A stretch of 64,000 nt of DNA, taken from assembly GCF_001956695.1 (NCBI RefSeq), contig NZ_CP019070.1, forward strand, positions 558,001 through 622,000. The letters run 5' to 3'. The stretch comes from Poseidonibacter parvus. Lineage in GTDB: Bacteria; Campylobacterota; Campylobacteria; Campylobacterales; Arcobacteraceae. Shown piece by piece: positions 33,957 through 45,226 of this stretch. Both the position numbers and the translations under genes were made by a program. Under the pieces are notes generated by a model. The model saw only the letters and a list, made by a program, of their open reading frames with translations, was not told the origin of the DNA and made no database searches. Numbering within the stretch: the stretch's first letter is position 1; every line of letters starts with the position of its first letter.

Positions 33957-33965
33957 ATAGTTTAT

Positions 33966-33988
33966 AAGTAGGCTTTTAAAGCCTACTT
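33966..33988. terminator. Hairpin between convergent DUF445 and SHOCT genes
   Basis: Near-perfect inverted repeat (33966-33976 with 33978-33988) just after the DUF445 stop and overlapping the last codons of the SHOCT gene. A T-rich stretch follows a few bases later on the plus strand. Confidence 0.6.
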
Positions 33989-34743
33989 AGTAATTCATTT
34001 TTCTTTGTATTAAATTCATTATCAGAAAGAATACCTGCTTGATGTAAACGACCAAGTTGTTCAATCATTTCTATAATTTCATTAGATGATTCATTTTTAG
34101 TAGAATTAGGTATAGGTGCTTCTTCAATAACAGCAGAAGGTTCTATAAAGTTTGTTTGAGGTGTTTGCGAAAAATCATTGTTTTGCATAGATGGAATATT
34201 TCCTCCTGAGATTATTGGAAGAGAAGAAACACTAATTGTTCCATATTGACTAGAAAAAGTAAGAGAGTTATCTCCTCCTTGTTGTTGTGAAACTCCACCT
34301 ATATTATTATCTAGTGTATCATATACAGTTACTTCAGAGTTTACTTCAACAGCAAGTCTATTTGGGAAAACTGCATATCTTGTATTATTTTGTGAACCGC
34401 TTGAAAAAGGAACTCCTAATTCCTTTGGCCACCATTGATTACTTCCTGGTGTTCCTGCTTCAATAACAGGAAAAACTTGCACACTTAATAATGCATTTGA
34501 GATTTCAGAACACAAATTATCGACAGTATTTTTAAGGCCATTATTAAACATGTCACCTACCATAGTCATCCCACCTTGCATCCATTGACCTGAACCACCT
34601 AGTTCTGGAGAATTAAACTGTGCCATTGTTCCTCCCCCAGTATTTACAGCTCCAATCATATGAATGATGGCATCTGCACTTAAGTTGTATTTATTTGATA
34701 GATTATTTACTAGGTTTTGACCTTCTTGTGTAAGTGTTTGCAA
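33976..34743 (-). CDS. SHOCT domain-containing protein
   Basis: About 255 residues. The C-terminal ~35 residues (IEQLGRLHQAGILSDNEFNTKK) form a SHOCT domain, a short helical oligomerisation module. The N-terminal part (LTQEGQNLVNNLSNKYNLS, GTMAQFNSPELGGSGQWM) belongs to a conserved family of SHOCT proteins that I recall as usually starting MQTLTPEGQ. I therefore start at the TTG at 34743, which has an AAGGA site 7 bases upstream. The ATG at 34791 adds 16 residues unlike the family. Its function is unknown and there are no membrane segments. Confidence 0.8.
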   Translation of the reverse strand: MQTLTQEGQNLVNNLSNKYNLSADAIIHMIGAVNTGGGTMAQFNSPELGGSGQWMQGGMTMVGDMFNNGLKNTVDNLCSEISNALLSVQVFPVIEAGTPGSNQWWPKELGVPFSSGSQNNTRYAVFPNRLAVEVNSEVTVYDTLDNNIGGVSQQQGGDNSLTFSSQYGTISVSSLPIISGGNIPSMQNNDFSQTPQTNFIEPSAVIEEAPIPNSTKNESSNEIIEMIEQLGRLHQAGILSDNEFNTKKNELLSRL

Positions 34744-35052
34744 AATTTTTCCTTTTAATTTGTTTAAAGTTTTTATGTGACATTCTATCATAGTTTAACA
34801 TTGTAGATGTTTTTAAATTTATTCAGATTGCTATTTATTTCGCATGTTCTTTGTTTATAATAAATAATTGTTGAATAAATCATATTTAATTGTCTAAATG
34901 ATATATAATATACAAATAGTAATGCAATTTAATTTTATTTCAGATAGAATTATTGTATCAATATTATACAAATGTAAAATATACTCCATTTACTATAAAA
35001 AATAGTTTTTTAGTAATTTGAAGCAGAAAAAATTTTTGACTAAGGGTGTTCA
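34744..35052. other. AT-rich divergent intergenic region
   Basis: About 309 bases between the SHOCT gene (minus) and the ATP-grasp gene (plus). TATAAT occurs at 34856-34861 and at 34904-34909, either of which could serve as a -10 box for the ATP-grasp gene, but I see no convincing -35 partner. No coding frame or strong hairpin is visible. Confidence 0.5.
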
Positions 35053-36417
35053 ATGTTAGAAAAACCAACGGAAATTAATACAAAATTTTGGGAAATATTT
35101 TCAAAACAAGATAGACAAAAGATAGAAGAGTTTAAAGTTTATATGGATAAGTTTGCAGTCAATTTTAATCTTTATAAAGATGGAAATTTTGTAGAACAAT
35201 CTTTACCTTTTGATGTAATACCACGTATTATTTCTAAACAAGAATTTAGTAAGATTGAAAAAGGATTAGTTCAAAGAGTAACAGCTCTAAACCTTTTTTT
35301 AGAAGATTTGTATACAGATGCTAAAATTGTGAAAGATGGTATTGTTCCTAAAGAATTTATTGAAAATGCAGAAGGTTACTTAAAAGAGTTTGTTGGTTTT
35401 TCACCATCAAAAAAAATAAGAGCACATATAAATGGTATTGATCTTGTAAAAGATTCTAAAGATGATGAATGGGTTATTTTAGAAGATAACTTAAGAGTAC
35501 CAAGTGGTTCAAGTTATCCATTATCAGTACGTAATACTTATAGAAAAATATATCCAGAGTTTTTTGAAAACTTTAAAATAGAACCAATTCAATCTTATCC
35601 AAAATTTATTACTGATGCGATGAATTATGTAAACACTGGAGGAATTAATGTTTTATTAACTCCTGGACGATTCAACTCTGCTTATTATGAGCATAGTTAT
35701 CTTGCTGAAAAAATTGGTGCACAACTTGTACGTGCTCATGAATTAGTAGTAATAGATAAAAAAGTATATTTTAAAAATTATAATGGACAAAAAATACTTG
35801 TAGGTTCAATATATAGAAGACTTGATGATGATTTTATTGATCCGAAGTTTTTCAATCCTGAAAGTCTTATTGGAGTTCCAGGTCTTGTAGAAGCATATTT
35901 AAGTGGTAATGTTGCTTTAATGAATGCAATTGGAAATGGTGTTGCTGATGATAAAGGGATTTATTACTTTGTACCTAAGATGATTAAATATTATCTTAAT
36001 GAAGAACCTATTTTAAAAAATGCTCCAACTTATCTTCCTTATTTTAAAGATGATATGGATTATGTAATGAAAAATATGGAAAAACTAGTAATAAAAGATG
36101 TTGCAGAGGCTGGTGGTTATGGTGTTTTATTCGGACATTCTATGAGTGCATTACAAATTGAAGATCTTAAAGTTACTATTAAAGCAAATCCACGAAGATT
36201 TATAGCACAAGAACTTATTCAATTCTATGATGAAAAGTGTTATTTAAATAATGAATTAAAAGATAGAAAAGCAGATTTTAGGGCATATGTTGTTGCAGGA
36301 GAAGATGTAAAAGTTTGGAATTGTGGACTTACACGATATGCATTAGAAGAAGGAAACTTCCTTGTAAATTCTTCACAAGGTGGCGGATTTAAAGATACTT
36401 GGGTAATGGAGTTATAA
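35053..36417 (+). CDS. Circularly permuted ATP-grasp protein (stand-alone)
   Basis: A 454-residue COG2308-type ATP-grasp protein. Conserved blocks are ILEDNLRVPSGSSYP, LLTPGRFNSAYYEHSYLA, YRRLDDDFIDP, NAIGNGVADDKGIYYFVP, VIKDVAEAGGYGVLFG, FIAQELI, DFRAYVV and GGGFKDTWV. ATP-grasp enzymes usually join a carboxylate to an amine through an acyl phosphate; the substrate of this family is unknown. The ATG follows AAGG by 7 bases. The alpha-E gene starts 1 base after the stop, so the two form a bicistronic unit. It is of a different subtype from the fused copy at 38066, which lacks the EAGGYG and DFRAY versions of these motifs. Confidence 0.9.
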   Translation: MLEKPTEINTKFWEIFSKQDRQKIEEFKVYMDKFAVNFNLYKDGNFVEQSLPFDVIPRIISKQEFSKIEKGLVQRVTALNLFLEDLYTDAKIVKDGIVPKEFIENAEGYLKEFVGFSPSKKIRAHINGIDLVKDSKDDEWVILEDNLRVPSGSSYPLSVRNTYRKIYPEFFENFKIEPIQSYPKFITDAMNYVNTGGINVLLTPGRFNSAYYEHSYLAEKIGAQLVRAHELVVIDKKVYFKNYNGQKILVGSIYRRLDDDFIDPKFFNPESLIGVPGLVEAYLSGNVALMNAIGNGVADDKGIYYFVPKMIKYYLNEEPILKNAPTYLPYFKDDMDYVMKNMEKLVIKDVAEAGGYGVLFGHSMSALQIEDLKVTIKANPRRFIAQELIQFYDEKCYLNNELKDRKADFRAYVVAGEDVKVWNCGLTRYALEEGNFLVNSSQGGGFKDTWVMEL

Positions 36418-36418
36418 A

Positions 36419-37084
36419 ATGGATCAATTATTAACAGCAAATGTTGCTACAAATATGTATTGGCTTGGCCGATATTTAGAGCGTGTTGAAACAGCACTTT
36501 ATAAAATAGAAAAAGCATTTAATATGACGATTGATGTTGATAAAAATGCTGGTGTAGATCTTTACAAAAAATTTGGTGTAGAATTAGAATATACTGATTC
36601 ATCAGACTTTTTAAAAGAAGCTATATATGGTGATCATGAAGCTAATGTTATGAATATTACAAGTAATGCTAGAGAAAGTGCAATTATTAGTCGTATTTAT
36701 ATAAATAATTCTGCATTTGGTGAGATTATTGAATTAGATGCACTATTTAAAAGAAAATTTAATGATACTATTCCTATAGATTATAAAGATTTAGATCATG
36801 CACTTTCTTTAATAAAAGAAATTTGGGGTGAAACTGCTAGTAGAAAAAAACAAAAAAGTAGTGATTACTTTTTTAAACTTGGCAGACTTATTGAAGAATT
36901 AGATATTTGCATAAGATTCTCTAGAGATTTTGAAATACTAAAGCAAATTATCGAAGAGATTAATTCAATATTTGAAATTCTCAATCCAGAATTAGACTTA
37001 AAAATTGATTCTCCAAAAGATGAATCAGATATTGATATTAATAAAATTCATAGCTTAGTTAATGAATTAATAGTTGAAGATTAA
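36419..37084 (+). CDS. Alpha-E domain-containing protein
   Basis: A 221-residue all-helical protein. The start, NVATNMYWLGRYLERVETALYKIE, is the typical entry of the alpha-E family (COG2307), rich in conserved acidic and Arg residues. Its activity is unknown. It is nearly always encoded beside or fused to circularly permuted ATP-grasp proteins, as seen twice here. It lies 1 base after the ATP-grasp stop and converges on the transglutaminase operon from the other strand. Confidence 0.88.
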   Translation: MDQLLTANVATNMYWLGRYLERVETALYKIEKAFNMTIDVDKNAGVDLYKKFGVELEYTDSSDFLKEAIYGDHEANVMNITSNARESAIISRIYINNSAFGEIIELDALFKRKFNDTIPIDYKDLDHALSLIKEIWGETASRKKQKSSDYFFKLGRLIEELDICIRFSRDFEILKQIIEEINSIFEILNPELDLKIDSPKDESDIDINKIHSLVNELIVED

Positions 37085-37088
37085 TAGC

Positions 37089-37120
37089 AATTAGCACTTA
37101 GATTTTTCTTTGTGCTAATT
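37089..37120. terminator. Hairpin between convergent alpha-E and transglutaminase genes
   Basis: A 9-bp perfect stem (37089-37097 with 37112-37120) with a 14-base T-rich loop. It sits in the 46-base gap between the two convergent genes and could end transcription from both sides, though the loop is long and the T tract is weak. Confidence 0.5.
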
Positions 37121-37130
37121 ACCTTTTCAT

Positions 37131-38063
37131 TTATTGTTGATTTTGTTGTTGAGTTTGTATATTAATTAGTTCTTTTTCTTCTTTTCTTACATCAACCATA
37201 ACTGTTAATTTACTATTTCCACTACTGTATACTACACCTTTTAAAGGTGAAATATCATTGTAATCTCTTCCTGAACCTAAAAGTATATGTTGATCTGTCG
37301 GAATAAGATTATTTGTAGGATCAAACTCTACCCATCCTGCATTTGGTATATATATACTAAACCATGCATGAGAAGCATCAGCTCCAAAAAGTTTTTTCTC
37401 ACCCTTTGCTGGTAATGTTTCTATGTAACCACTCATATATTTAGCAGGCAAGCCTATTGTTCTTAGTGCAGATATTGCAAATTGTGCAAAATCTTGGCAT
37501 ACCCCTTTTTTTGCTTCAAAGATTTTTTCAATGGGTGTAGTTATATCACTAAAGCCTGAAACAAATTTAAAATCTGTAAAAATACGTTGCATAAATTCTT
37601 GAGTAGCTTCGAAAACATCTCTATTTTTTTGAAAAGATACTAAAGCATATTCTTTTATTTTTAAAGATGCTCTTGGAATTAAATCAGATTCAAATAGATA
37701 TTGCTTTGCATGTAAATCATCAATATTAAACTTTGATAAACGATCAATTGAAGCTCCATATGTTAGGCTATTTTTTTTAATATTTTCAATATATTCTCTT
37801 CTTTGTTCAGGATATAATTCTATTTTAGATTTTCCAATAACACTAAGTGATGTATGAGGTTCTCTTATTAACATGTAAGTATTTGTATTTCCAAACATAT
37901 CAATAAACTCTTTTGAATCGTAAACTTCAGGTGATATCTGCATTGTAAAGTCGATTACCCTTTGATAGTTTGTACTTTTAGGTTTAAGTCTGGCAATATT
38001 ATGACTAAAAGAAACACTATCTTGATATCTAAATTCTGTCTTATGATAAATATTATAAACCAT
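37131..38063 (-). CDS. Transglutaminase-like cysteine peptidase family protein
   Basis: A 310-residue protein with the bacterial transglutaminase N-terminal beta region (1-100) and a transglutaminase/protease core. The triad is visible as Cys189 (KKGVCQDFAQF), His232 (DASHAWFSIY) and Asp248 (VEFDPTNN). No signal peptide is seen, so it should act in the cytoplasm. It could cleave or exchange amide or peptide bonds, opposing or completing the ligase encoded upstream. It is the last gene of a three-gene operon, 2 bases after the fused ATP-grasp gene. The C-terminus ends in a Gln-rich tail. Confidence 0.9.
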   Translation of the reverse strand: MVYNIYHKTEFRYQDSVSFSHNIARLKPKSTNYQRVIDFTMQISPEVYDSKEFIDMFGNTNTYMLIREPHTSLSVIGKSKIELYPEQRREYIENIKKNSLTYGASIDRLSKFNIDDLHAKQYLFESDLIPRASLKIKEYALVSFQKNRDVFEATQEFMQRIFTDFKFVSGFSDITTPIEKIFEAKKGVCQDFAQFAISALRTIGLPAKYMSGYIETLPAKGEKKLFGADASHAWFSIYIPNAGWVEFDPTNNLIPTDQHILLGSGRDYNDISPLKGVVYSSGNSKLTVMVDVRKEEKELINIQTQQQNQQ

Positions 38064-38065
38064 TG

Positions 38066-40564
38066 TTACTCGTCATTATGTGAAAAATAAGTATTTGAAA
38101 ACTCATTCGAGCACTCTAAAAATAAATCTGATAACGAAGATAATTTCTTATCTAATTGCACATATATTCCTTCTTCTTCTTTAATTTCCATTAAAGTTTG
38201 TAAATTCATTGATTTTAATAGTTCTTGTGCTTTTAACATAGCTTTTTCGTATGAAGTAAAATCTTTTTTGGCCTTTGGTAATTCCTTAAACTCTTTTAGA
38301 AGATTTTCAGTCATATAGGTTAAAGATTTTGGAAATTGTGGATTTAGTATTAAAAAATCTACAACATTTTCTAATGTTAATGAGCTTTTATAATGTGCTC
38401 TATAAGCATTAAAGCTACCTAATGAAGTTAATATTCCTTCTAAAACATCATATCCAATTGATTTATCAAGTTTTAAACATAAAATAGACCTAGCTTTTGA
38501 AATCAGATGTAATGAATCTTCAATTTTATAACCAATATCGTATAGTATTAAACCTTGTTCTTTAAAGATACTTTCTTTTACTAGTTCTTTATACGCCATC
38601 ATATAAATAAGAAACTTATCAAGTTCACTTGCCATTGACATAGATGAATCATTTTTTTTGTTTATAAATTTATTCCAACTTTTTTGCATTTCTTCAAAAA
38701 GTTTCCAAGATTCTAATGTTAAAAGATCTTTAATATTAACATTAGTATTTGCAAGCATCATTACCGTTGATGCTAAAGAACCAGCTCTATACATATCCTT
38801 AATTACAGATGTAATTTCTTTAATTGGATTAATATTTTGAACTTTTTCATTATCAGCGTTAATAAAACCTGGATAAGTCATTGTCATATGTGTTAATGCA
38901 TTTTGTAATATTATTTGAGATTCATTTGAAGTTAATACTTCATTTCTATAGAAATTTGTAATCTTCTTGATTATATGTAAAATTAATCTAGAAGTAGAAA
39001 TAGACCTAGAAAGATATCTTCCTAACCAAAAAAGATTTTCAGCTTTTAATGTAGAAATTTCATCAATTGAAGTTTCAATATATGGCGTGTGAGTTAGTGA
39101 ATTGATTTGACTTAAAGGAATATCATCTTTTCCTAATATCCATAAATCTTTACTAATTCCACCTTTTCTTTTTGATGAAGTAAGTAAGTTTTCTTTATTT
39201 TCTGAAATTCTTACAAGTCCACCATTCATTACAGAATAATCTTCATCTTTTTTTAAACAAAAAGTTCTAATCACGGCATTTCGTGGTTCAATTTTTCCTT
39301 CTGTATAGTAAGGTACCGTTGAGAATTCTATTTCTTCTTGAGCAACATATTGATGTGGGTTTTGAATAAGAAGATTAATAAGATTTTTTTTCTCATCTTT
39401 AGATAATTTTCTTCCAAAATATACTTTTATATTATTTGGTATATCAATTTTTTTGATAATTAGTTTGTCAAAATGTTCTAAAACAAAATCAAGTTCTTTT
39501 TTTTGTCCACACCACCAAGTTGCAATTTGAGGAAGTATTAAATCTTCTTTTAAAAAGTATTGACAAATTTTTTTCATAAAAGGATTAAGTCCAATATTTT
39601 CAGCAACTGCACTTCCTATTGGATTTATCATATTAAGATTATCTTCTCTTAATGCTTCTACAAGTCCAGCAACACCAAGTCTAGAATCATTTCTTAACTC
39701 AAGTGGATCTGAGTATCTATCATCAACTCTTCTTAAAAGTGTATTGATTTTTTTAAGGCCACTTAAACTTTTTAGCCATACTGTGTTATTTTTTACAAGT
39801 AAATCTTGGCCTTGAACCATATTTAATTCTAAAAAATTACTAAGGTATGCATGTTCAAAATATGTTTCATTGTAAGGTCCAGGAGTTAACAACGCAGCAG
39901 ATGAAATATCACCTTTTGTTAGTTTTTTTAATAAGTCTTTAAACTCTTGTATAAATGATGCTAATTTTTTTGTTTCAATACTAGGATATAAATCTTGAGC
40001 AACAACATTCATTGTTAATCTATTTTCAATAGCATAGCCTAATCCAGATGGTGCTTGTGTTTTATCACTAACAACCCACATTTTACCATTTGGACCTCTT
40101 GCAATATCAGCAGCATAAAAGTAAAGATTAAAATCTTCTTTACTTCCAAAATCAAAAACTTCAGTTGTAAAACCTTTGTACCCATAGATAACTTCTGCAG
40201 GTACAATGTTGTTTTTTATAAGTTTTTGTTCTGAATATAGGTCTTTAATAATTAAATTAAAAAGCTTTGCTCTTTGTTGAAGACCTTTTTTAACTATTTT
40301 CCATTCTTCTTCTTCAATAACAAAAGGAATTGGATCTAAGCTCCAAGAACGGTTCTTAGGTCCATCATGGTCATCATAGATATTATATGTTACACCATTA
40401 TCTTGAAGATGCCAATCAATTTCACTTTGTTTATCTTCTAAAGTATGTAATCCAGCATTTTCAATATCAGATACAACTTCTTTCCAACAATCCCTTATGT
40501 TATCCTTGTCATCATGCATTTCATCAAATAATGACTCAGAAACATAAGTATCAAATATGCTCAT
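38066..40564 (-). CDS. Circularly permuted type 2 ATP-grasp fused to alpha-E domain
   Basis: An 832-residue fusion. Residues ~60-480 form the ATP-grasp part: TYNIYDDHDGP, DKTQAPSGLGYAIENR, LLTPGPYNETYFEHAYL, LRRVDDRYSDP, YVAQEEIEFS and KGGISKDLWIL. Residues ~515-820 form the alpha-E part, starting AENLFWLGRYLSRSIST. These motifs match the long fused subfamily as I know it, so the differences from the 35053 protein are subfamily features, not decay. The start codon directly abuts the stop of the upstream transglutaminase gene and the next gene begins 2 bases after its stop, so the three gene products are probably made together. Confidence 0.9.
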   Translation of the reverse strand: MSIFDTYVSESLFDEMHDDKDNIRDCWKEVVSDIENAGLHTLEDKQSEIDWHLQDNGVTYNIYDDHDGPKNRSWSLDPIPFVIEEEEWKIVKKGLQQRAKLFNLIIKDLYSEQKLIKNNIVPAEVIYGYKGFTTEVFDFGSKEDFNLYFYAADIARGPNGKMWVVSDKTQAPSGLGYAIENRLTMNVVAQDLYPSIETKKLASFIQEFKDLLKKLTKGDISSAALLTPGPYNETYFEHAYLSNFLELNMVQGQDLLVKNNTVWLKSLSGLKKINTLLRRVDDRYSDPLELRNDSRLGVAGLVEALREDNLNMINPIGSAVAENIGLNPFMKKICQYFLKEDLILPQIATWWCGQKKELDFVLEHFDKLIIKKIDIPNNIKVYFGRKLSKDEKKNLINLLIQNPHQYVAQEEIEFSTVPYYTEGKIEPRNAVIRTFCLKKDEDYSVMNGGLVRISENKENLLTSSKRKGGISKDLWILGKDDIPLSQINSLTHTPYIETSIDEISTLKAENLFWLGRYLSRSISTSRLILHIIKKITNFYRNEVLTSNESQIILQNALTHMTMTYPGFINADNEKVQNINPIKEITSVIKDMYRAGSLASTVMMLANTNVNIKDLLTLESWKLFEEMQKSWNKFINKKNDSSMSMASELDKFLIYMMAYKELVKESIFKEQGLILYDIGYKIEDSLHLISKARSILCLKLDKSIGYDVLEGILTSLGSFNAYRAHYKSSLTLENVVDFLILNPQFPKSLTYMTENLLKEFKELPKAKKDFTSYEKAMLKAQELLKSMNLQTLMEIKEEEGIYVQLDKKLSSLSDLFLECSNEFSNTYFSHNDE

Positions 40565-43500
40565 TTATTGCTTTGCCCACTTTCTTCTTAAATCTAATGT
40601 ATTTGGATATTCTAAACTTACAGGAATTTCTTGGAAAAGGAATTTCTCATTATTAAGTTTATCTTTTAAAACTACTGCTCTTTTAGCGCCATTTATTTCT
40701 ACTAAGTTTTTTTGTACACTTGAAGAAGAAATATGTTCTATTTCTCCTTGTGTATGATTAAATGGTTGGAATCTATTAATTCTTCTTGATTCTGCTTCAC
40801 CTGCATTAATTGGGAAAGTTTCATAAGTTCTTCCACCTGGATGTGATACATGATATGTCATTCCACCAATTGATCTTTCATTCCATTTATCAACAATATC
40901 GAATGTAAGTGGCGTATCAACACCAATTGTAGGATGTAATGCTGACCAAGGTTGCCATGCTTTATATTTAACACCTGCAACAAATTCACCTTCAACTCCA
41001 GTAGGGCTTAAAGGAATTACAACTGAATTACAAGTAAGAATATATCTTTCAGGAACAAAATTATTTACTTTAATTTGAACTCTTTCTAATGATGAATCAA
41101 CATATCTAGATGTTCCTTGAGAACCACTTTCTTCTCCAAGTACATGCCAAGGCTCAATTGCAGCCCTAAGCTCTAGATGTACATTTTCAACTGTAGCCAT
41201 TCCATATAGAGGGAATCTAAATTCAAAGAAAGGATCAAACCAATCAAGATTAAAGTCATAACCTTCATTATTTAAAAACTCAACAATATCTTTCATATCT
41301 TCTTTTACATAATGCTCTAATAAAAACTTATCATGAAGCTGTGTATTCCATCTTACTAGCTTATGAGTATATGGTTTTTTCCAGAACAATGAAACTAATG
41401 TTCTAATTAGTAAATTCTGCATTAGTGCCATTTTAGGATGTGGAGGCATATCAAAACCACGTAGTTCTAAAATACCAAGTCTTCCTGTACTTGAATCTGG
41501 TGAATAAAGCTTATCTATACAAAATTCAGAACGATGAGTATTTCCTGTAATATCAGTTAACATATGACGGAATAGTCTATCAGTTAACCAGAAAGGTACG
41601 TCTTCACCTACTGGAATTTGAGAAAATGCAATTTCTAATTCATAAAGATTTTCTAATCTTCCTTCATCAACACGAGGTGCTTGAGATGTTGGACCTATAA
41701 AAGCTCCTGAGAAAAGGTAAGATAAACCAGGGTGATGTTGCCAAAATGTAATAAAGCTTCTAAGAACTTCAGGACGTCTAAGTAATGGACTGTCTTCTGG
41801 TCTCATTGCTCCAATTGTAACGTGATTTCCACCACCTGTTCCTGTATGTTTTCCATCAAGCATAAACTTCTCTGTTCCAAGTCTAGATTCTCTTGCATCA
41901 TTATAAAGTGTAAATAAATTTGATGTTAAATCTTTCCATGTATTTACAGGTTGAATATTTACTTCAATTACACCTGGATCTGGAGTAACTTTTATAGTTT
42001 CTAAACGTAAATCATGAGCTGGTTCATACCCTTCTAGAACTATTTTTATTTTAAGTTTTCTAGCAACTGCTTCAATTGAAGCAATTAAATCTAAAAATGC
42101 TTCTGTATGATTTAAAGGTGGTAAGAATATATAAAGCTTACCATCTCTTACTTCAACATTTAATCCTGTTCTAATAAATGTATCTTCTGGATTATTTTTA
42201 TTTTTTTTATTTCCTGCATCTTGAGCACGTTTTTCTGCTTTTTTCAAAAACTTCTTAAGTTTTGGTGCTTTTGCAAAAAGATCTGGCTCAAAATGTAAAG
42301 GTAATTCATTTTCAGGATTTTCAATAAGAGAATCCATAGGTAATCTAAGTCCTAAAGGTGAATCACCAGGAATTAAGAAAATCTTATCCCGTCTAAATGT
42401 CCAATAAGAAGTCATCCATTCACTTTCAGCATAGTTTAAAGGTAAGATATAACCAACAGGTTTACTTAAACCTTGACTAAGAACTCTTGCAATAGTTTTT
42501 CTTTCAATTGAATTATCAATATCATATTCAGCTGAATCAATATCAATTGGTAATTCAGCTTCTTTCATAATATAATGAATAGGATCTTCGTAAGCTGGAA
42601 GTATAGTTTTATCAGATACTTTTAAAGTAAGTGCTAAATATTCAATAAATTTTTTAGCATCATCATTTGTGTATTCATATGTTTCATTCATATTTGCAAA
42701 TAAATCTGGGTTTTTCCAAATTTTCTTACCATCTTTTCTCCAAATAATTGAAGTTTGCCATCTAGGAACTGGTTCACCTGGATACCATTTCCCTTGTGCG
42801 TAATGAAGCATTCCACCTTTACCAAAAGAGCTTAAAAGTCTTCTTGACAATTTATCTGCTAATTCTCTTTTTAAAGGACCATCAGCAGCTGTGTTCCACT
42901 GCTCAGATTCCATATCATCAATAGATACAAAAGTAGGTTCTCCACCCATTGATAATCTTACATCATTTTTTTGAAGTTCATCATCAACTTTATAACCTAA
43001 AGAATTTATTGCATCCCATTGGTCATCTCTGTATGGTTTTGTAACTCTTGGAGATTCAAAGACTCTTGTTACAGTATTTGAAAAATCAAACTCTGTTTCA
43101 CATTTATCACTTAAACCTTCAATTGCATGAGCACTTTCATAATGTGCAGTACATGCAAGTGGTATATGACCTTCACCTGCAAATAATCCACTAGTAGAAT
43201 CAAGTCCTACCCATCCAGCACCTGGAAGATAAACTTCTGTCCAAGCATGTAAGTCTGTAAAGTCTTCTTCAGGACCACTAGGACCATCAAGAGATTTTTC
43301 ATCTTGTTTTAATTGAACTAAGTAACCTGATACAAATCTTGCTGCAAGACCTAAACTTCTTAATACTTGAACAAATAACCAGGCATAATCTCTACAGCTT
43401 CCAAGTTTTTTATCAAGAGTAGTCTCACAATCTTGTACACCAGCTTCTAAACGAACTGTATAATCTAAATATTTATATATTTCTGTATTTAAATAAACAA

Positions 43501-43933
43501 GGTAGTCATTAATTTTACATTCTTTTAAATCAAGTGATTTAACGAATTTCTTAAGCTCTTTCCCACTTTCCGTAACTTCAAAATATGGTTTTAGTTCTGC
43601 TTTCAATTCAGGTTTATATTCAAAAGGAAATTGCTCAGCATATTCTTCAACAAAAAAGTCAAAAGGATTAATTGAGATTAAGTCTGCAATAACTTCTACA
43701 TCAATTCCAAACTCTTTTACTTTTTCAGGGAAAACAACTCTTGCTAAATAATTCCCATAAGCATCTTGTTGCCAATTAATAAAATGATTCTCAGGAGTTA
43801 TCTTCATTGAGTAAGCATCAATTGGTGTTCTACTATGAGGTGCTGGTCTCAACCTAATTGTGTGTGGTGAAAGAGAGATATACTTATCGTATTTATAATG
43901 TGTTTTATGAGATAGGACTACTTTTAATGACAT
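40565..43933 (-). CDS. Transglutaminase-like protein with C-terminal DUF2126 (putative amidoligase)
   Basis: A 1122-residue protein. The N-terminal ~300 residues are a transglutaminase-like unit with Cys180 (KLGSCRDYAW), His229 (TDLHAWTEV) and Asp245 (VGLDSTSG). The remaining ~800 residues are DUF2126 (COG4196), described in Pfam as a putative amidoligase. Its conserved stretches include SMGGEPTFVSIDD, GKWYPGEPVPRW, HTGTGGGNHVTIG and LRGFDMPPHP. One chain thus combines a likely amide-cleaving domain and a likely amide-forming domain. No signal peptide is visible. It heads the three-gene operon running to 37131. Confidence 0.9.
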   Translation of the reverse strand: MSLKVVLSHKTHYKYDKYISLSPHTIRLRPAPHSRTPIDAYSMKITPENHFINWQQDAYGNYLARVVFPEKVKEFGIDVEVIADLISINPFDFFVEEYAEQFPFEYKPELKAELKPYFEVTESGKELKKFVKSLDLKECKINDYLVYLNTEIYKYLDYTVRLEAGVQDCETTLDKKLGSCRDYAWLFVQVLRSLGLAARFVSGYLVQLKQDEKSLDGPSGPEEDFTDLHAWTEVYLPGAGWVGLDSTSGLFAGEGHIPLACTAHYESAHAIEGLSDKCETEFDFSNTVTRVFESPRVTKPYRDDQWDAINSLGYKVDDELQKNDVRLSMGGEPTFVSIDDMESEQWNTAADGPLKRELADKLSRRLLSSFGKGGMLHYAQGKWYPGEPVPRWQTSIIWRKDGKKIWKNPDLFANMNETYEYTNDDAKKFIEYLALTLKVSDKTILPAYEDPIHYIMKEAELPIDIDSAEYDIDNSIERKTIARVLSQGLSKPVGYILPLNYAESEWMTSYWTFRRDKIFLIPGDSPLGLRLPMDSLIENPENELPLHFEPDLFAKAPKLKKFLKKAEKRAQDAGNKKNKNNPEDTFIRTGLNVEVRDGKLYIFLPPLNHTEAFLDLIASIEAVARKLKIKIVLEGYEPAHDLRLETIKVTPDPGVIEVNIQPVNTWKDLTSNLFTLYNDARESRLGTEKFMLDGKHTGTGGGNHVTIGAMRPEDSPLLRRPEVLRSFITFWQHHPGLSYLFSGAFIGPTSQAPRVDEGRLENLYELEIAFSQIPVGEDVPFWLTDRLFRHMLTDITGNTHRSEFCIDKLYSPDSSTGRLGILELRGFDMPPHPKMALMQNLLIRTLVSLFWKKPYTHKLVRWNTQLHDKFLLEHYVKEDMKDIVEFLNNEGYDFNLDWFDPFFEFRFPLYGMATVENVHLELRAAIEPWHVLGEESGSQGTSRYVDSSLERVQIKVNNFVPERYILTCNSVVIPLSPTGVEGEFVAGVKYKAWQPWSALHPTIGVDTPLTFDIVDKWNERSIGGMTYHVSHPGGRTYETFPINAGEAESRRINRFQPFNHTQGEIEHISSSSVQKNLVEINGAKRAVVLKDKLNNEKFLFQEIPVSLEYPNTLDLRRKWAKQ

Positions 43934-43993
43934 TTTTTTTCCTTAATAGATTAATTAATAAATATAAAATTATAACATTTAATTTTATGTCAG

Positions 43994-44047
43994 TTTTGTC
44001 TATACTTAAATATTCAATATAGACAAAAAACTTGTAAACTTGTTTAC
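43994..44047. promoter_or_regulatory. Paired inverted repeats upstream of the transglutaminase operon
   Basis: An 11-bp perfect inverted repeat (43994-44004 with 44018-44028, 13-base spacer) is followed by a second dyad, GTAAAC-TT-GTTTAC, at 44034-44047. Both lie 60-115 bases before the start codon of the DUF2126 gene. No T tract follows the first repeat on the minus strand, so it is not an obvious terminator for the 44130 gene. Operator or leader-RNA roles are possible. Confidence 0.35.
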
Positions 44048-44129
44048 TATTTTAACTTTAATTATAACATTGTAACACTTATAGGAGACTACAAGTTTCT
44101 AAAAATCAAATTTACTTCTTGATAGATAT

Positions 44130-44981
44130 CTAACATTGTGTAACCCATACTCCAACATCAAGATTAGATTTTGCATCACCTGCAAATGAGCCAGATATTG
44201 GAGGAACAGCATGTGCAAGCCTAGATACTGCAACTGGAATATGATCTTTCCCAACTAAATCTCCAATTGTAGGATCAAAACCTTTCCATCCAACCCCTGG
44301 CAAATAAACCTCTGCCCAAGCATGTGTAGAGCCTATTTGTTCAGACATAAGTGGTGCATAAAGATAACCACTTACAAATCGTGTTGCTAATCCTAGACAT
44401 CTAACAGCTTCCATAAACAAAAATGCAAAATCACGACAAGAACCTGAATTTAAACTTAATGTTTCTTTAATACTTTGAACACCAGTTTCTTCTCTGATGT
44501 TATATACTAATGAGCTATAGATATATTTTGTTATTTTTTGAAGAAGTGTATATGTTTGAATTTCTTCATCATATTTCCAGATATTGAAAATCCAATTATT
44601 TAATAATTGTCTAGTTTCTTCATCTGGTAAAACTCTATAAGGTGATAATAGAAACTTGTCATCTTCTTTATAGTCAAATGGGTAAGTAATAGCATAGTCT
44701 GAAACTATAAAATCCAATGGTGATATATTATATTGTTGAAGTATTACTTCACTTTCAATAAGAAGTTGTTGTGTAATATGATTAAAGTTTGCTACTGCAA
44801 CTGAGTTGTTTTCAATATCTCTGTGCCACAATATCTTAGTTTCGGGTGTACATTTTAATGTAAAGGATTCTATTCTTAGTTCATAATCTTCTCTTGGACG
44901 TAAAAGTAAATGATGAGTTCCTAAGTCTACTCTTTCTGTATAATTATAGTAAGTACGATGAACTATTTTATATCGTTGCAT
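44130..44981 (-). CDS. Transglutaminase-like cysteine peptidase family protein
   Basis: A 283-residue protein with the same two-part fold as the other transglutaminases of the cluster. Its triad is Cys182 (NSGSCRDFAFLF), His220 (GSTHAWAEVYLPG) and Asp236 (KGFDPTIG). It resembles the N-terminal domain of the DUF2126 protein (SCRDxA, RFVSGYL, HAWxEVYLPGxGW) more than it does the 37131 protein. It is separated from the operon by 196 bases, so it may be transcribed on its own or with it. No signal peptide is seen. Confidence 0.9.
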   Translation of the reverse strand: MQRYKIVHRTYYNYTERVDLGTHHLLLRPREDYELRIESFTLKCTPETKILWHRDIENNSVAVANFNHITQQLLIESEVILQQYNISPLDFIVSDYAITYPFDYKEDDKFLLSPYRVLPDEETRQLLNNWIFNIWKYDEEIQTYTLLQKITKYIYSSLVYNIREETGVQSIKETLSLNSGSCRDFAFLFMEAVRCLGLATRFVSGYLYAPLMSEQIGSTHAWAEVYLPGVGWKGFDPTIGDLVGKDHIPVAVSRLAHAVPPISGSFAGDAKSNLDVGVWVTQC

Positions 44982-45226
44982 ATTAATATCCTAATACAGA
45001 GTTATTATAAAGTTAAAGTGCTAGTTATATATAAAAAGCTGTACATATCTTAGCAAATTTTTTGAAGTAATTAATTAACATCTGTTTATTTTATAGTATA
45101 TATGTAGAATAATTTAGTTTTAAAGAAGTATAAATAAGAGTTTATTTAAAAGACTCTTATTCATAAATTAAACCTATTTTTAATACAATACGATTTAATG
45201 AGATAAATATATAGGAATTATAAATT

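Follow-up and report, generated by a model that had tools for sequence, protein, structure and literature searches.

The operon of the Anbu type was reportedly first predicted to be a peptide-tagging system by Iyer et al. in 2009, who are also said to have assigned the DUF2126 family to the glutamine synthetase (GS)-like proteins, and a GS-like ligase is presumably linked to such operons. Here we analyze an island of six genes in a 64,000-nucleotide stretch of Poseidonibacter parvus DNA (the window; G000:C1:558001-622000 in our numbering, from a 2.87 Mb genome in a single contig). The island shares with the Anbu operon the joint presence of circularly permuted (CP) ATP-grasp, alpha-E and transglutaminase-like genes. 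It consists of a module A (genes A1 and A2), a module B (B1, B2 and B3) and a third transglutaminase-like gene, A3. The CP-ATP-grasp protein of module B is probably an ancient, retained pseudo-ligase, and the second ligase of the island is probably the DUF2126 part of B1. The gene system as a whole is already known from PMC5666114 and PMC6376114, excerpts of which retell the predicted tagging system (all papers are cited here and below in excerpt). Unless already noted by Iyer et al. 2009, our analysis adds the family-wide loss of catalytic-type residues in B2 and the dependency of module B on module A. It would likewise add a Campylobacterota variant, with no Anbu found among the matches examined, a short alpha-E and a presumably active/dead pair of AstE/AspA relatives, as well as the laterally acquired form with A3 that the window carries.

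Experimental data are available for related operons. In Yersinia bercovieri, the ATP-grasp of the Anbu operon releases phosphate from ATP, Anbu is described as being without peptidase activity, and no specific interaction among the operon proteins was detected (PMC6376114). For Pseudomonas putida PP_2686-2688, values of 11.0-14.7 are given under nitrogen limitation, alongside urea transport genes, in the first data column of PMC7801951 (heading not identified), which names NtrB/NtrC as the regulator; a second study lists PP2685-2687 at 6.6-11.1 in its first data column (PMC3325844). In Burkholderia cenocepacia, I35_5080-5083 appear in an NtrC regulon table with values of -6.0 to -9.4 and are annotated as DUF404/407, DUF403 and two transglutaminase-domain proteins (PMC5491218). 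The window island likewise groups DUF404/407 and DUF403 with a transglutaminase and a large protein that has a transglutaminase domain. The Burkholderia block is under NtrC/sigma-54 control, whereas no such site was found at the window island, and a related Burkholderia locus (L115) encodes a full-length alpha-E of 313 residues, unlike A2 of the window. A link with urea-metabolism domains is described for marine metagenomes (PMC3597751). Some candidate parallels were rejected: according to the excerpts, the NtrC-related transglutaminase gene hvyA of Caulobacter is a capsule gene, and other systems account for RloABC of Pseudomonas aeruginosa and for a Shewanella membrane transglutaminase that is inactive.

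Unlike the Anbu operon, the window island has no Anbu that we could find, a shortened alpha-E, an adjacent module B with a probable pseudo-ligase, and the extra transglutaminase A3. Pfam found no proteasome-family gene within the island, and the sole proteasome-family match elsewhere in the genome is a 178-residue HslV-like open reading frame (ORF), far from the island and beside an HslU-like ORF. Proteasome-family matches were obtained in 36 of the 40 genomes searched. The six that were examined besides the source genome are HslV by eye, five of them with an HslU-like ORF alongside, and the negative result for Anbu covers these six and the source genome. We note that four alpha-E genomes (G218, G337, G342 and G344) have no proteasome-family match at all, HslV included, and that G031 (L069) has extra proteasome-like matches with internal stops (5, 2 and 1 TAA), which suggests foreign sequence in this draft genome.

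Organization and distribution of the two modules

ORFs and Pfam matches confirm the six genes and the domains proposed in an initial annotation made from the DNA alone. Module A lies on the forward strand and contains A1 (35053-36417, 454 residues), a canonical CP-ATP-grasp ligase by its motifs, and, 1 base downstream, A2 (36419-37084, 221 residues), a short alpha-E protein corresponding to an N-terminal helical bundle. Module B lies on the reverse strand and contains B1 (40565-43933, 1122 residues), a transglutaminase-like domain joined to DUF2126, a putative amidoligase with a modeled GS fold; B2 (38066-40564, 832 residues), a degenerate CP-ATP-grasp fused to a degenerate alpha-E domain; and B3 (37131-38063, 310 residues), a transglutaminase-like cysteine hydrolase/transferase. 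The gaps of 0 and 2 bases noted earlier in this trio are correct. A3 (44130-44981, reverse strand, 283 residues) is separated from B1 by 196 bases, and the gaps within and flanking the island are 261, 1, 46, 2, 0, 196 and 245 bases in order. CP_ATPgrasp_2 matches two of the proteins (E 1.4e-133 and 8.1e-130), Alpha-E matches two (E 4.3e-10 for the 221-residue protein and 5.8e-42), Transglut_core matches three, and DUF2126 matches with E 0. The two proposed alpha-E domains are thus both present as matches, but A2 is a short form that covers only profile positions 3-165 of 294. Hydrophobicity averaged over 19 residues does not exceed 1.43 in any of the six proteins; lacking strongly hydrophobic stretches, they are probably cytoplasmic, as proposed.

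The conserved co-occurrence predicted for these families is observed both within Campylobacterota and in other phyla. Alpha-E is present in 39 of 347 Campylobacterota genomes and DUF2126 in 33, all of which are among the 39 (Fisher p 2e-40, relatedness ignored; a match in G319 with E 2.9e-4 fell below the cut-off and is left out of the count), so the association is not due to chance. A stand-alone alpha-E is also found in 32 of the 33 DUF2126 genomes, the exception being the fragmented G320. Module A occurs without module B in six genomes (G107, G188, G224, G267, G301 and G308). Where both modules lie in one stretch (n = 23, window included), they are convergent in 21, divergent in one (L053) and in the same direction in one (L045); in six other genomes (G014, G342, G375, G337, G218 and G031) they are far apart or on separate contigs. 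Among 80 DUF2126 loci from several phyla, the orders A1-A2 and B1-B2-B3 recur, not in all: some loci are ended by a contig edge, and others have B1 alone or no A1 nearby. When the genomes of 50 of these loci were searched whole, A1-type proteins were found in 49 (not in that of L083) and B2-type proteins in 49 (not in that of L146). Types were assigned by open-frame length and score, and three A1-types needed judgement, those in the genomes of L130 and L159 each being broken into two pieces and that in the genome of L148 lying in a frame that is too long. Because module B almost never occurs without module A, it looks like an add-on to the latter.

Two features of the neighborhoods are worth recording. 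Genomes of genus g72 (L038, L067 and G324) have a second short alpha-E gene adjoining module A. A hybrid histidine kinase/response regulator (for example L089:3144-6578) recurs in 10 of the 80 loci, 9 of them outside a hand-made Pseudomonas set, with a median distance to the block of ~2 kb; apart from it, no neighbor cluster was found in more than five of the 80 loci outside that set.

Intact and degenerate ligase domains

A1 and B2 were compared in an alignment of 65 A1-type and 93 B2-type rows, from which A1-type rows under 400-440 residues and B2-type rows under 700 residues were dropped. One solved relative of A1 was found by sequence (3n6x, E 2.6e-118). The motifs of A1 are intact (D130...E144-D-N146, then K348...AGGYG), and the working-ligase pattern, D..E-x-N followed by a lysine and a glycine loop, is present in 64-65 of the 65 A1-type rows, that of the window included. 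E144, N146 and D299-D300-K301 are kept in all 65 and the loop G354-G355-Y356-G357 in 64-65. In contrast, the B2-type rows keep E in 1 of 93 and N, D299, D300 and K301 in none; the four loop positions are kept in 3, 6, 1 and 2 rows, and N439/S441 are gone from nearly every row. B2 of the window itself has S166-D-K168 in place of E-D-N and has no glycine loop. A1-type and B2-type rows fall on the two sides of a single branch in the tree, with support 1.0 and no row misplaced. Q74, R75, R160, E213, D263, G274, N291, G294, R410, D448 and W450 are invariant in all 93 B2-type rows, and because so many residues are fixed B2 is under constraint and not decaying. Judged by these alignments, B2 is probably a pseudo-ligase of ancient origin that has lost the Mg-binding-type E-x-N pair and the glycine loop and has been retained. 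We note that B2 of G358 (L183:9605-12101), which is outside the 93 rows, consists of two overlapping frames, reflecting either a real frameshift or an assembly error.

The order D..E-x-N, lysine, glycine loop in A1 is shared with Escherichia coli Gss, YgiC and YjfC, in which it was found by eye; ygiC and yjfC are annotated as peptide-spermidine ligases, and D318, E330 and N332 of Gss are presumably Mg-binding residues. No significant profile alignment joins these proteins to A1. Gss pairs a ligase with a papain-like amidase, and no alpha-E or GS-fold partner is known to us for Gss, YgiC or YjfC.

The alpha-E part of B2 has drifted in the same way as its ATP-grasp part. Residues A84-R85-E86-N87, D162 and R166 are found in 88-100% of module-A alpha-E rows per group and column (A2 of the window has Ser at position 87), and at each of these positions fewer than half of the B2 alpha-E rows (n = 90) have the module-A residue. 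Among module-A alpha-E proteins, 35 are short forms and 25 are full-length. At its C-terminal end, A2 is short of ~40% of the family domain; it retains most of the conserved residues of the N-terminal bundle, including the characteristic W, G-R and E-R residues. A model of a full-length module-A alpha-E from Desulforhopalus (L119; pLDDT 85.5, pTM 0.84) is all-helical. The short form of the window corresponds to the N-terminal part of this model, and of the 14 columns invariant in alignment A4, 12 fall within the first 200 residues, a count favored by the presence of the short window row in that alignment. No convincing fold relative of this model was found: no Foldseek match was better than E 0.6, and the best VIA matches, with Z up to 9.9, were helical proteins; this negative outcome carries no weight as evidence that relatives do not exist.

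A structure model of the window DUF2126 domain (857 residues, built with 46 sequences; pLDDT 75.6, pTM 0.78) indicates a GS fold. Foldseek matches it to 8fbp (E 2.9e-3, probability 0.99), and VIA gives Z 15.3 to the glutamine synthetase 9n4x over 258 residues with a root mean square deviation of 3.6. Each of the 50 VIA matches listed is a glutamine synthetase or a GS-like enzyme, for example GmaS. The model fold is thus shared with glutamine synthetase and gamma-glutamylmethylamide synthetase (Z 13-15). Unlike in those enzymes, only ~258 of the 857 model residues align, with an identity of ~12%, and a transglutaminase domain is fused to DUF2126. E67, E369, E392, H439, E558 and R560, the candidate site residues, are invariant in 46 of 46 rows of alignment A5, which contains 45 of 58 non-redundant loci and the window. 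Because of the fold of its model, DUF2126 is probably the second ligase of the island.

Cys-His-Asp triads are intact in B1 (C180/H229/D245), B3 (C189/H232/D248) and A3 (C182/H220/D236), in agreement with the initial annotation. In a transglutaminase-like alignment of 208 rows, the Cys is kept in 204, the His in 206 and the Asp in 206. The window protein nearest to A3 is the transglutaminase domain of B1. A3 was seen only in G000, G007, G325 and G358 among the fetched Campylobacterota stretches (a phylum-wide search for it was not made), and one A3-like protein was found outside the phylum, in Arenibaculum (L093).

Lateral history and the AstE/AspA pair

In the B1 tree, the window and G007, which belong to the same genus, are nested in a clade that also contains G325 and G358, members of a different family, with support of 100/100, and the A1 tree contains the same four-member clade (support 96/95). 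The window and G007 stand apart from the other members of their own family, eight in the B1 tree and nine in the A1 tree. The trees leave out the genomes without a fetched stretch (G154, G247, G273, G320 and G324), and G031 appears in the A1 tree but not in that of B1. Alpha-E is present in only 2 of 10 genomes of the genus, and seven congeners (L176-L182) have no island between the flanking genes on the DUF445 and mfd sides, the interval there holding 0.1 to 10 kb of other content. In view of the tree placement with another family, the patchy presence in the genus and the island-free spot in congeners, the simplest reading is that the island was acquired laterally at a variable site, window positions 33957-45226, between the DUF445 gene and a pair formed by a 102-residue gene and mfd. 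GC content is no guide here (29.3% against 28.6%). A gene for a SHOCT-domain protein, a possible passenger, adjoins A1 both in the window (33976-34791, reverse strand) and in G007 (L052:6036-6806), and perhaps forms part of the transferred unit; the flanking genes of the window were not found in the G007 stretch.

In most Campylobacterota loci, module A is accompanied by two tandem relatives of AstE/AspA. In 26 of 38 fetched stretches, the pair comes immediately after alpha-E or after a transglutaminase that follows alpha-E. We searched the 347 genomes with a profile built from the pairs of 12 loci within the searched set. Matches at E 1e-10 were obtained in 55 genomes, of which 32 have the pair with strong matches (E 4.3e-120 at the weakest). 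The other 23, including G000, have only distant longer proteins (best E 3.1e-39) that were not counted. Strong matches thus occur in 32 of the 39 alpha-E genomes vs 0 of the 308 others (Fisher 9e-39, relatedness ignored). PF04952 was discarded as a probe, as the model now covers another domain; its matches fell in 2 of 59 genomes and were not next to the block in either. In copy a, the zinc-site-type residues H44, E47 and H131 and a later acid, E193, are kept in 12 of 12 sequences, and in copy b H44 and E193 are kept in none and E47 in one, and H131 is replaced by E in all 12. To judge from these residues, the pair consists of one active and one dead copy. No such pair was found in the fetched stretches of the 80 DUF2126 loci of several phyla, where one distant single match occurs (L124).

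The lineage of the window differs in having A3 and no AstE/AspA pair at the locus, as do G007 (seen in its stretch only), G325 and G358. The pair is likewise missing in G022, G026, G237 and the fragmented G320, in which A3 was not seen. The only AstE-like ORF of the window genome is a distant one of 351 residues (L188:35-1883, at G000:C1 ~523-525 kb), which follows and overlaps an ORF that is RimK-like by eye, and the two are possibly a separate amide-bond system.

The pair with its active and dead copies gives a second, independent pointer to amide hydrolysis. If B2 is indeed a pseudo-ligase, the presence of a dead copy alongside a working enzyme, in the roles of B2 and A1 and again in the AstE pair, could be a recurring design, which we propose tentatively.

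Possible functions of the island

We consider it about 45% probable that the island encodes a cytoplasmic, nitrogen-linked cycle that makes and breaks amide bonds on small substrates. In module A, A1 would activate a carboxylate with ATP and join it to an amine; its partner, the alpha-E protein A2, would probably shape the acceptor site. In the add-on module B, the GS-fold part of B1 would serve as the other ligase and probably create a gamma-glutamyl-type amide from whatever module A produces or from a related amine. B2, as a fused and catalytically dead counterpart of A1-A2, may hold or regulate B1, fill the substrate site of A1-A2 without turnover, or both; that it is an obligate partner or sensor of the GS-fold ligase DUF2126 across bacteria is plausible, with odds somewhat below even. 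The transglutaminase-like parts (the N-terminus of B1, B3 and A3) would use a cysteine acyl-enzyme to cut or transfer amide bonds. Lineages that have the AstE/AspA pair would gain from it a further amide hydrolase, the window lineage having A3 and lacking the pair. Most likely, the cycle would serve to store or recover nitrogen as small amide-linked molecules when nitrogen is limiting. The computed results establish the domains, the triads, the motif states of A1 and B2, the GS fold of the modeled DUF2126, the co-occurrence and the lateral transfer. We infer these reactions, the partner and scaffold roles and the substrate class from the domains and residues described above, and the nitrogen role by analogy with expression data on related operons in other bacteria. 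The nitrogen-linked cycle is preferred because of the values given for those operons under nitrogen limitation or in the NtrC regulon.

Several observations weigh against this proposal. B2-type rows retain the D preceding E-x-N in 91 of 93 cases and the Lys in 69, and ATP binding without canonical chemistry is therefore possible. Profile comparisons of the ATP-grasps with GspS, and sequence or profile alignments of DUF2126 with E. coli GlnA, gave nothing significant, and the residue correspondences follow motif order in both cases. The second Glu of the GS motif E-x-E is replaced by an invariant Thr in DUF2126. The nitrogen data stem from Anbu-type or Burkholderia operons of another phylum, and we take PP_2687/2688 to be the alpha-E and ATP-grasp genes by inference. 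No sigma-54-like site lies in the gaps or flanks of the island; matches in the island are all inside genes, and the whole window has 25 matches vs 17.6 by chance (standard deviation 4.2). The Anbu-like PP_2685 has a value of only 1.12 in the same first column, heading not identified (PMC7801951), and peptide synthesis is judged less likely for Anbu by Vielberg et al. (PMC5666114). In the literature searched, from which most subscription papers were excluded, no substrate or product of the CP-ATP-grasp/alpha-E/DUF2126 proteins was found.

The main rival is protein or peptide tagging, in which proteins would receive a peptide or amino acid from the two ligases and lose it again through the transglutaminase-like proteins. 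This hypothesis is published for the related Anbu operon, as retold in PMC6376114 and PMC5666114, and two ligases with several papain-like proteins do resemble writers and erasers. We consider it unlikely, though worth keeping in mind, in view of the missing Anbu (in the island and, among the matches examined, in the source genome and six others), the absence of an obvious carrier gene in the short gaps in and beside the island, and the lack of detected interaction among the Y. bercovieri proteins (PMC6376114).

It is less likely still that B2 works as an unusual ligase that binds Mg and ATP through other residues, which would give the island three ligases in all. Its residues Q74, R75, R160, E213, D263, N291, R410, D448 and W450 are common to both groups and invariant in B2, and B2-type proteins are found in 49 of 50 genomes, as such a role would lead one to expect. 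Set against this are the near-complete loss of E144, N146, D299, D300, K301, the glycine loop and N439/S441, the variable Lys, and the drift of the alpha-E residues. ATP-grasp ligases and papain-like proteases also occur together in graspetide-like clusters, but a secreted peptide natural product built by such enzymes is very improbable here, as no transporter or precursor gene was seen within the block (gaps up to 261 bases, small ORFs not searched systematically) and the sole widely recurrent extra neighbor across phyla is the histidine kinase.

The general expectation of the initial annotation, that the island makes and breaks amide bonds, fits the ATP-grasp, predicted GS and transglutaminase folds. 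Its two CP-ATP-grasp proteins stand as Pfam matches, but the analysis does not support two ligase variants for different steps: by its motifs B2 does not have the ATP site of A1, and the plausible second ligase is DUF2126. That the pathway is complete is doubtful, because the AstE/AspA pair is absent here and the Anbu of the published operon was not found.

The CP-ATP-grasp, alpha-E and DUF2126 families span many phyla. Knowing which ligases are likely to be catalytic (A1 and DUF2126) and which is probably not (B2) guides what to express and mutate. As module B is almost never seen without module A, their activities would best be tested together, not singly.

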